From contig JAIEUA010000010.1 of assembly GCA_019744815.1 (NCBI GenBank), positions 372,001 through 436,000 on the forward strand: a stretch of DNA of 64,000 bases, read 5' to 3'. Below, one piece after another: positions 3,898-35,286 of the stretch. The translations under genes and the position numbers were made by a program. The notes beneath the pieces were generated by a model, which worked only from the letters and a program-made list of their open reading frames with translations, searched no databases and was not told the origin of the DNA. Source of the stretch: Phycisphaerales bacterium. GTDB taxonomy: Bacteria; Planctomycetota; Phycisphaerae; Phycisphaerales; UBA1924. Position 1 is the first letter of the stretch, and every line of letters begins with the position of its first letter.

Positions 3898-3917
3898 GAC
3901 CGGCCGGGAGGCCGGTC
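3898..3917. repeat. palindromic hairpin repeat GACCGGCC-GGGA-GGCCGGTC
   Basis: A perfect 8-bp stem with a GGGA loop lies 29 bases after the stop at 3869 and is followed by CCCACTGCC. It resembles the short interspersed palindromes elsewhere in the window. It may protect or end the upstream transcript, but no T-run follows. Confidence 0.75.
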
Positions 3918-4009
3918 CCACTGCCGTGATTGGGGGATGGCACGCGGAAGCCCGAAGGCCCCACCCCTAGTGTCATCCAAAGAGCGTCTCCGCAGCTGTT
4001 GGTTCGCCG

Positions 4010-5059
4010 CTAATTCTTCCCTCCGCGCCCCTCCGCCCGCTCCGCGCCCTCCGCGTTCTCTTCTCCCCACGCCAGCACAATCCCCGCCAGCTCATCCGCC
4101 ACCCCGATCATCGCCGTGCTCGGCGTCAGCCCCAGCGGATCATCGATCACCGCCACCCGCTTGTTCTTGATCGCCGGCACATTCAATTCCGCCGCCCGCC
4201 CCATCAGCGCGATCAACTCCTCCGCCGTTGGCTGCTTCTCCGGCTCCGCCGTCCGCGGCGGCCTCGGCGAGAAAATCACAATCCCATCCGGGGCCAGCTT
4301 CTGCAAGTCCTCCAGATCCAGCGTCACCCACGCCGCCTTGAACTTGTCATCGCCGCCCGCACCCAGCGCTGGCACGCCGCCGAGTTGCTCCAGCAACTGA
4401 TGATGAAAACTCCCCGGCCCCATCGCCCCCAGCGGCTTGGCCGATCCCAGAATCAGAATCCGCCCCGCACGCTTCATCCCCGCGCCCCGATCGCGCCACG
4501 CCCGCTTCATCTCCTCCTCAAACGGCATCGGCGGCTTCACGTGCTCCCGGGGGCGGGGCCTTCCAGGCCCCGGCGTCCCCTCTTCCTTCTTCTCTTCCCC
4601 CACCGTCCACGCAAACACCGCCTCATCCATCTGCCGCGCACACGACTCGATCTCATCCAGTCCCAGTGGATTGAGGTTCATCACCACCCAGTCATTCGCC
4701 TTCGCCAACTCCGTAAGCCGCTCCGGCAGTTCCCGCGCTCCCCACTGAATGAACACATGCGTCGGCCGCACGCGTATCAGCGTTTCGTAGTCGATCGTCC
4801 CCAGTTCGCCGCACGATGGCACCTTCGGGTCCAGCACCAAGTCGTACGCGTGCCGCCCCACGATCTGTGCCTCGTACCCCAGGTCCTTCAGAATCACCGC
4901 GAGCGCCGGGCTGTGCGCCACAATCCGAAGCTCCCGCGTCGGCGTGGTCTCCGACCCGGTCGCACCACTCTTGCTCGGCTCGCGTCCACATCCCGACACC
5001 ACCGCCGCGAGCACGATCGCTCCGAGCCACAGCATCACCTTCGCAACGATCGCTCGCAT
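4010..5059 (-). CDS. substrate-binding lipoprotein of a metal/cobalamin ABC importer (BtuF-like)
   Basis: The 349-residue protein starts at ATG 5059 with a lipoprotein signal peptide (hydrophobic residues 8-22, VVSGC, Cys24). The body matches the helical-backbone periplasmic binding fold: ELRIVAHSPALAVILKDLG, the GTIDYETLIRVRPTHVFIQW block and ILGSAKPLGAMGPGSF. It probably binds a corrinoid or siderophore-type ligand outside the inner membrane; no permease or ATPase gene is adjacent. Two parts look repeat-derived. Residues about 160-171 (GTPGPGRPRPRE) are encoded by a GC palindrome also found between genes at 35.2 kb. The C-terminal ENAEGAERAEGRGGKN is encoded by a copy of the CTCCGCG-type repeat, so the frame seems extended by repeat insertion. 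Confidence 0.72.
   Translation of the reverse strand: MRAIVAKVMLWLGAIVLAAVVSGCGREPSKSGATGSETTPTRELRIVAHSPALAVILKDLGYEAQIVGRHAYDLVLDPKVPSCGELGTIDYETLIRVRPTHVFIQWGARELPERLTELAKANDWVVMNLNPLGLDEIESCARQMDEAVFAWTVGEEKKEEGTPGPGRPRPREHVKPPMPFEEEMKRAWRDRGAGMKRAGRILILGSAKPLGAMGPGSFHHQLLEQLGGVPALGAGGDDKFKAAWVTLDLEDLQKLAPDGIVIFSPRPPRTAEPEKQPTAEELIALMGRAAELNVPAIKNKRVAVIDDPLGLTPSTAMIGVADELAGIVLAWGEENAEGAERAEGRGGKN
4017..4062. repeat. CTCCGCG-type interspersed repeat (family C), overlapping a CDS end
   Basis: Tandem imperfect units of CTCCGCGCCC / CTCCGCCCGCTCCGCG / CCTCCGCGTTCTC. Related copies lie at 5255-5303, 40174-40209 and 40281-40316. This copy encodes the last residues of the BtuF-like lipoprotein on the minus strand. 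Confidence 0.75.
4549..4580. repeat. family B GC palindrome inserted in frame within a CDS
   Basis: CGGGGCCT (4554-4561), loop TCC, AGGCCCCG (4565-4572), in a GGGGGCGGGGCC context. The core is identical to the intergenic inverted pair at 35166-35188 and 35239-35261. Here it lies inside the minus-strand lipoprotein gene without breaking its frame and adds a Pro/Gly/Arg-rich loop. Confidence 0.85.
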
Positions 5060-5096: not shown

Positions 5097-5135
5097 GGTG
5101 CCATCAGTCCGCCGGCTCGGCGGCGCGACTGATGC
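5097..5135. repeat. GGTGCCA-type palindrome, variant stem, left member of a pair
   Basis: GGTGCCATCAGTC begins the element and GACTGATG closes it, with CGCCG/CGGCG pairing inside. The outer GGTGCCA matches family A, but the stem sequence is different. The inverted partner is at 5161-5202. Both lie in the divergent region between the BtuF-like gene and the glycosyltransferase gene. Confidence 0.8.
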
Positions 5136-5160
5136 GGCCCGGAGACGCTACTTCCAGACG

Positions 5161-5202
5161 CACCAGTCGCGCGGCTCCGAGCAGCCGCGGACTGGTGGCA
5201 CC
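5161..5202. repeat. GGTGCCA-type palindrome, variant stem, right member of a pair
   Basis: CACCAGTC at the left pairs with GACTGGTG at the right, with GCGGCT/AGCCGC inside, ending TGGCACC. It is inverted relative to 5097-5135, so the two GGTGCCA ends face outward, as in the pair at 622-732. Confidence 0.8.
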
Positions 5203-5254: not shown

Positions 5255-5303
5255 CGCGCCACTCCGCCCTCTCCGCCCCTCCGCGTTCTCTCCCCGCGCC
5301 CGC
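5255..5303. repeat. CTCCGCG-type interspersed repeat (family C)
   Basis: CTCCGCGCCACTCCG, then CCCTCTCCGCCCCTCCG, then CGTTCTC: the same phrase as at 4017-4062. It lies just upstream of the glycosyltransferase start at 5325 and probably occupies its leader. Confidence 0.7.
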
Positions 5304-22857: not shown

Positions 22858-22886
22858 AAAACGCCCGGGCACTGCCCGGGCGTTTT
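22858..22886. terminator. bidirectional intrinsic terminator
   Basis: A perfect 13-bp stem, AAAACGCCCGGGC / GCCCGGGCGTTTT, with a 3-base loop, followed by CTTT on the plus strand and, on the minus strand, by TCATTC. The A-tract and T-tract at the two ends let it serve both the subtilase gene and the convergent YSC84-like gene. Confidence 0.93.
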
Positions 22887-35139: not shown

Positions 35140-35165
35140 AGGACCCGCACCGTGGGCGGGGCGGG

Positions 35166-35188
35166 GGCGGGGCCTTCCAGGCCCCGCC
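35166..35188. repeat. family B GC palindrome, left member of an inverted pair
   Basis: GGCGGGGCCT / AGGCCCCGCC, 10-bp stem with loop TCC, 27 bases after the AsmA-like gene stop. Mirror copy at 35239-35261; a third copy lies inside the gene at 4549-4580. The pair could stop or stabilise both converging transcripts. Confidence 0.9.
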
Positions 35189-35238
35189 GATGCATGACCG
35201 AGATAGTCGGCCCGAACCTGTGAGAGGACAAAAAGAAA

Positions 35239-35261
35239 GGCGGGGCCTGGAAGGCCCCGCC
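35239..35261. repeat. family B GC palindrome, right member of an inverted pair
   Basis: Same 10-bp stem as 35166-35188 with loop GGA, in reverse orientation (the flanking GGGG now reads CCCC on the right). It ends 26 bases before the convergent STAS gene stop. Confidence 0.9.
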
Positions 35262-35286
35262 CCCATGTGTTGCCGTTGTCCGCCTG

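Follow-up and report, generated by a model that had tools for sequence, protein, structure and literature searches.

The palindrome within the lipoprotein gene is best read as one copy of a 27-nt REP-like element that spread by copying in a single lineage and whose in-frame survivors, the lipoprotein copy included, lie in loops that were already variable; we put the probability of this reading at about 0.8. It was found in a window of 64,000 nucleotides (the whole stretch of DNA analysed) from the Phycisphaerales genome referred to below as G000, which comprises 4.11 Mb in 18 contigs. The tagged hairpin has been copied, its copies are restricted in lineage, some of them are in frame within genes, and the loops that hold these are variable in relatives. 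The element would have spread in the common ancestor of the G000 species and its sister G005, and afterwards, with most copies settling just behind gene ends. A few copies would have entered genes, where selection would have spared those that preserved the reading frame and came to lie in flexible loops that were variable already. Between two helices of the lipoprotein the element may have replaced, or joined, a variable loop of ancestral origin, and this copy is most likely neutral for the protein.

The palindrome on which the original prediction was based is exact, and its core is that of a pair at 35.2 kb: CGGGGCCTTCCAGGCCCCG matches without mismatch in the gene and twice more in this pair, the last time inverted (Table 1). 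With up to two mismatches allowed these three remain the only matches in the window, against a mean of 0.14 in shuffled sequences, none of 100 of which reached three. The hairpin belongs to an asymmetric unit of 27 nt, consisting of a tag, the 19-nt hairpin and a short tail, and the six frames of the element contain no stop codon. Genome-wide we found 88 copies with at most one mismatch and analysed 87 of them (C15:17777 was left out). Positions -5 to -1 of the tag are G in 84, 85, 87, 74 (A in 12) and 86 of the 87 copies, and a GGRG tag stands directly 5' of the hairpin in 84 (GGGG in 72, GGAG in 12, another sequence in 3). Beyond -7 on one side and from +22 on the other, the hairpin copies are mixed in base composition, which gives a unit of ∼27 nt; a Rickettsia-like unit of 100-150 bp was rejected, as the composition is mixed outside -6 to +21.

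Table 1. Coordinates of the features discussed; plain numbers are positions in the window.
Feature	Location	Strand	Remarks
Host gene, Peripla_BP_2-type lipoprotein, 349 aa	4010..5059	-	element = residues 162-171, TPGPGRPRPR
One-sided tag GGGGG	4549..4553	+	consensus GGGRG immediately 5' of hairpin
Hairpin CGGGGCCT-TCC-AGGCCCCG	4554..4572	+	perfect 8-bp arms, 3-nt loop
Tail GCG, weakly conserved unit end	4573..4575	+	tails CGC 20, CCG 19, GCG 18 of 87 copies
Intergenic copy of element	35163..35189	+	exact hairpin 35168-35186
Inverted intergenic copy of element	35238..35264	-	exact hairpin 35241-35259; inverted pair with 35163..35189
REP2 copy (AGTRGGACCGGCYTCC...GCCGGTC), intergenic, 3' of lipoprotein gene	3898..3922	-	G000:C1:375907-375922:-
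RdgB/Ham1 with nested RAYT, 466 aa	L097:754-2151 = L286:1375-2772; G000:C1 ∼463.8-465.2 kb		outside window; PF01725, NF047646
ValRS with RAYT, 12 Phycisphaerales	L302, L305, L308, L168, L185, L348-L350, L356-L358, L361		between SDQWY and DWCISRQ motifs
LeuRS with in-frame RAYT (7)	L346, L351-L355, L359		
MiaA with in-frame RAYT (1)	L360		
Glycine C-acetyltransferase-like enzyme with in-frame RAYT (1)	L347		
Different IS200-like transposase, in frame at same ValRS site	L169:676-1563	-	G009; PF01797 above cut-off
Different IS200-like transposase, in frame at same ValRS site	L178:611-1522	-	G083; PF01797 above cut-off
Different IS200-like transposase, in frame at same ValRS site	L179:2731-3540	+	G079; PF01797 above cut-off

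The host protein matches Peripla_BP_2 (PF01497) with 35.4 bits against a cut-off of 27.5, and its AlphaFold model, built with 26 sequences (mean pLDDT 87.5), matches the structures of HutB, BtuF, HtsA and BhuT, binding proteins for haem, B12 and siderophores. The label 'BtuF-like' given at the outset is thus a fair one, although HutB, HtsA and BhuT are matched too. The palindrome is in frame, as had been proposed, and the Pro/Arg-rich stretch that it encodes does fall within a loop, a modelled coil (residues 154-180) between helices 134-153 and 181-187. Block mean pLDDT is 69 for residues 151-160, 64 for 161-170 and 86 for 171-180.

What the original prediction held beyond this, that an RPE-like in-frame insertion had made a new surface loop, is unlikely when the orthologues are compared. 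Measured from ARQMDEAVFAW to RILILGSAKP, the segment is 69 residues long in G000 and 67 in G005, and without the element it has 66 in G001, 68 in G003, 68 in G006 and 66 in G007, so that a full-length loop lacking the repeat is found in four of the five congeners having an orthologue (a search of G004 found none). The fifth, G002, also element-free, has a segment of 55 residues, 12-14 shorter, and this would suit a loop added by insertion, as would the in-frame position, the Pro/Arg-rich composition and the absence of the TsaC insert described below from six of six congeners. In a tree built from four proteins after removal of their loops, however, G000 and G005 (100/100) stand beside the other six congeners (93/96), and because of this placement a long ancestral loop with one shortening in G002 is the simpler history, requiring fewer changes; moreover, the segment ranges from 45 to 78 residues in 23 rows of the family. 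Judged from these alignments, the element appears to occupy an old variable loop and not to have created it. The comparison with orthologues had itself been put forward as the refuting test, and it did so for length, the repeat-free loops being equally long, but not for composition, since the congeners' loops contain Pro and are not Arg-rich; sequence, therefore, and not the loop would be the contribution of the element.

It had also been suggested that the genome be scanned for other copies within genes, and at least 11 of the 87 copies are in frame, in nine genes, as judged by codon scores and translation. Throughout, coding calls were made with a codon score trained on the window and with Pfam, and eight of the nine genes have a Pfam match. 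They encode the lipoprotein, a PabB-like chorismate-binding enzyme (two copies in tandem), an ABC ATPase, an AroD-AroE fusion (an inverted pair), TsaC/Sua5, a glycosyltransferase, ValRS, GpmI and one unknown protein, and between them the copies use four of the six possible reading frames. For six of the eight genes compared (the ABC ATPase was not among them) G005 has a copy in the corresponding position, namely those for the lipoprotein, GpmI, the unknown protein, the glycosyltransferase, AroDE (one of two copies) and PabB (one of two), and in ValRS and TsaC the G000 copy is absent from G005. The ValRS loop measures 60-74 residues across 13 genomes, with or without the element. In TsaC the segment is 33 residues long in all six congeners; G000, which has the element, reaches 51, and G005 reaches 52.

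Some of these lengths count against the explanation by copying into variable loops. The net change differs from the size of the unit, being +3 residues in GpmI (compared with five congeners) and none in ValRS or the lipoprotein compared with most congeners, and TsaC is 18-19 residues longer in both G000 and G005 than in the six congeners, with no recognisable copy in the G005 insert. The element thus sits at sites of loop variability, and the data fit insertion and replacement alike; the 33 G000/G005 locus pairs that were aligned, most of them chosen as both copy-bearing, yielded no clean empty site. In TsaC of G013, which belongs to another genus, the segment has 48 residues and contains, in the corresponding position, a near copy of the hairpin (judged by eye), perhaps an independent arrival.

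That the palindrome is a copy of a dispersed repeat, as first supposed, is borne out by the genome as a whole, which holds 71 exact copies of CGGGGCCTNNNAGGCCCCG with any 3-nt loop (TCC/GGA in 61 of them) against 0 for the reversed control. Among 121 relatives, whose MAG assemblies were used as given, exact copies number 71 in G000, 37 in G005, 8 in G013, 6 in G010 and 1 in G108, and 0 in all others, including the six other congeners (G001, G002, G003, G004, G006 and G007). A search of 84,980 species genomes, among which the window's own genome is possibly not represented, returned 37 stretches with the exact 19-mer. Of these, 21 (24 matches) came from Phycisphaerales isolate RE-18aug17-265 and 2 from Phycisphaerales SJ192; the other 14 were single stretches in unrelated bacteria. 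When genes are called by codon score, the tag side has a gene 3' end no more than 150 nt away (median 19 nt) in 54 of the 87 copies; on the opposite side of the hairpin there is one within that distance in 18 of the 87. This location behind gene ends is the usual position of REPs. Together with the inverted pairs and the strong hairpin, it would also be expected of a binding or uptake signal (nucleoid, terminator or DNA-uptake sequence) that had been spread by selection and is not transposable, which we consider decidedly unlikely in view of the sharp unit borders and asymmetric tag, an explosion confined to two sister species, and the copies inside coding loops.

It is very unlikely that the hairpin has been kept in the lipoprotein gene for a function, be it as mRNA structure or as peptide. 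All 19 of its nucleotides are unchanged in G005, which could also mean constraint, but the flanks are 92% identical, and hence zero change over 19 nt would be unremarkable. The tag half of the same copy has changed in G005, from GGGGG to GAGGG, the loop is variable, and the congeners are without the element. The mRNA fold around the hairpin is ordinary (z -0.62, with 47 of 200 shuffles folding equally well), and this fold test leaves selection for mRNA structure unsupported. A chance palindrome in a GC-rich loop, for which the GC-rich genome might speak, is refuted by the copy number set against the reversed control and by the tag common to the copies.

We regard the element as a REP-like miniature element, specific to its lineage, and as a new family of an already known kind. 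In the broad sense it has the properties of a REP, a short palindrome present in many more copies than expected by chance, with a conserved one-sided tag and a mainly extragenic location, the copies outside the at least 11 intragenic ones being judged by codon score alone. The GTAG/CGTC REP super-families, as described in parts of PMC3733652, resemble it in being 20-40 bp palindromes with a one-sided tag that lie mostly extragenically near gene 3' ends, some of them fully in frame; they differ in that the tag here is GGRG, and no REP-associated tyrosine transposase (RAYT) is flanked by the family. The tag counts given above accordingly place the 27-nt element outside these super-families, whereas a second G000 family, REP2, does carry a GTAG/GTGG tag. 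The Rickettsia palindromic elements, in the portion of PMC10969869 that describes them, are likewise in frame in many unrelated genes and coding in the host frame, but they are ∼150 bp long, compared with ∼27 nt here. A conserved encoded peptide would also be expected of such elements, and the copies here use four of the six frames. Inverted pairs such as that at 35.2 kb recall REPINs, which are predominantly extragenic according to part of Bertels and Rainey 2011 (PMC3116915). The view that in-frame palindromes are rare outside Rickettsia is not supported, since parts of PMC3733652 (Di Nocera 2013) list in-frame REPs for several other species. In-frame REPs are thus known and little explained, and the present genome pair offers the same repeat in nine genes, relatives without the repeat, and loops that were variable beforehand, shifting the picture from repeats that create loops to variable loops that admit repeats.

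We infer that the copies were moved by a transposase of the RAYT/TnpA_REP-type HUH kind acting on single-stranded hairpins, and such an enzyme would cleave the single strand at the tag, by analogy with the TnpA_REP biochemistry covered in part of PMC8266576. It counts against our explanation that the hairpin family has no GTAG tag and flanks no RAYT: a search allowing up to four mismatches found no copy within ∼1.5 kb of any of the six Y1_Tnp genes of G000, and a RAYT beside the 27-nt family was therefore rejected as a candidate at all six loci. One of these six genes turned out to be a RAYT situated inside another gene. The RdgB/Ham1 protein of G000 matches PF01725 (176 bits) in two stretches, and between the halves, at residues 236-369, lies a RAYT (NF047646, 89.6 bits, cut-off 80) with the motifs DHVH and YTLENP. 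REP2 is present at both RAYT borders, exact, inverted and in frame (L286:1950 and 2506), so that the unit has both an HUH and Tyr transposase and tagged palindromes at its two borders. It resembles in this the REPtrons of Corneloup 2021 (PMC8266576), which also combine an NF047646 HUH transposase with inverted tagged palindromes; known REPtrons are described as separate genes, whereas here the whole unit is in frame inside a housekeeping gene.

The distance between the RdgB anchors is 26-33 residues in 11 uninterrupted relatives, compared with 202-245 in seven nested ones. REP2 tags number 107 in G000 and 110 in G005 and are absent from the six other congeners, and the two genomes of the genus with these tags are the same two with a RAYT nested in RdgB. 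Free RAYTs occur in G001, G002, G004 and G006 (among the matches listed), and as these congeners are without REP2, the mere presence of a RAYT does not suffice. The nested RAYT is the sole match to NF047646 in G005 at an E-value of 1e-10 or better, among the matches listed and for this type of RAYT only. Between G000 and G005 the dN/dS ratio is 0.145 for the RAYT, 0.10 for the first part of RdgB and 0.46 for the last (Nei-Gojobori script, 138 codons), a pattern that points to purifying selection on the nested RAYT. A model of the whole RdgB-RAYT chain, built with seven sequences, has a mean pLDDT of 65 with linkers below 50, and its structural matches are with RdgB on the one hand and with 4er8, a REP-bound RAYT, on the other.

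This arrangement is not confined to RdgB. A survey of the 121 relatives, with NF047646 and the RdgB-RAYT protein as queries and with counts that are minima, found at least 29 RAYTs in frame inside host genes in 24 genomes: 12 in ValRS, 8 in RdgB, 7 in LeuRS, 1 in MiaA and 1 in Kbl (glycine C-acetyltransferase-like). In the nested RdgB of G024 the contig ends ahead of the second RdgB half, and in the nested LeuRS of G015 the N-terminus lies in another frame. Single frames of G014 and G087 exceed both NCBIfam cut-offs, with scores of 845.8 and 944.6, respectively, for valine--tRNA ligase (cut-off 704) and of 88.7 and 90.0 for the RAYT (cut-off 80); the RAYT nested in MiaA (76.1) and that in LeuRS of G041 (69.2) score below the latter. 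HUH was seen in all 29 and the catalytic Tyr in 28, the exception being G010 (two regex mismatches were read by eye). When the first four codons of the RAYT core are taken together with the 25 preceding it, 12 of the 29 have no ATG, GTG or TTG in this stretch, and 21 have no ATG. The ValRS inter-anchor length is 51-121 residues when un-nested, compared with 235-316 with a RAYT.

A tree was built from 62 RAYT cores, and the 29 nested rows all belong to a single clade (98/96) that also takes in 3 of the 33 free rows; the tree is midpoint-rooted, many of its inner branches are weak, and the free rows are a non-random set, the best NF047646 match of 29 genomes plus four others (one, L362, starts at a contig end). 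The LeuRS, MiaA and Kbl types group together in a single subclade (100/99). The ValRS and RdgB types are mixed with each other, and since RdgB rows appear at three points, a RAYT probably arrived at this one RdgB site on more than one occasion. Searches of open-access PubMed Central papers gave no description of RAYTs in frame inside genes; part of PMC6006769 reports overlong TnpA_Y1 proteins that were called 'gene fusions or annotation errors' and discarded. The nested transposases are the new part of these results, in-frame REPs being already known from the parts of PMC3733652 cited above.

A broader proposal, to which we would give even odds, is that a Phycisphaerales RAYT lineage lives as an in-frame domain of essential enzymes (ValRS, LeuRS, RdgB, MiaA and Kbl), having entered via its own stop-poor REP borders, and would be expressed within the host protein and still be active. 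The host gene would pay for it and protect it, intein-like without splicing, and the 27-nt loop hairpins would represent the non-autonomous form of this habit. Were the nested transposases both translated and active, a transposase would have its permanent home in an essential tRNA synthetase. This, if true, would be a new mode of persistence for a bacterial mobile element, and the spread of REPs and the housekeeping-like behaviour of RAYTs would become directly testable.

A few further repeats were seen. In ValRS of G019 (L183), at the site used by the RAYTs, there is an in-frame inverted palindrome pair (GTGFQPV ... LKARST) with no transposase, possibly a REPIN in a coding loop and in this respect unlike the predominantly extragenic REPINs. 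Upstream of the lipoprotein gene, at window 5097-5202, lies a third, longer inverted repeat (GGTGCCAYCAGTC ... mirrored), whose motif occurs 16 times in the 72 G000 loci retrieved. A direct repeat, CTCCGCGTTCTCT, is present at window 4049-4061 and 5279-5291, the first copy being where the lipoprotein's Glu/Arg/Gly-rich C-terminal tail is encoded; G005 has no such tail. A perfect, terminator-like inverted repeat of 14 bp lies at window 22858-22886; its centre is 1 nt, and both of its ends have an A/T run.
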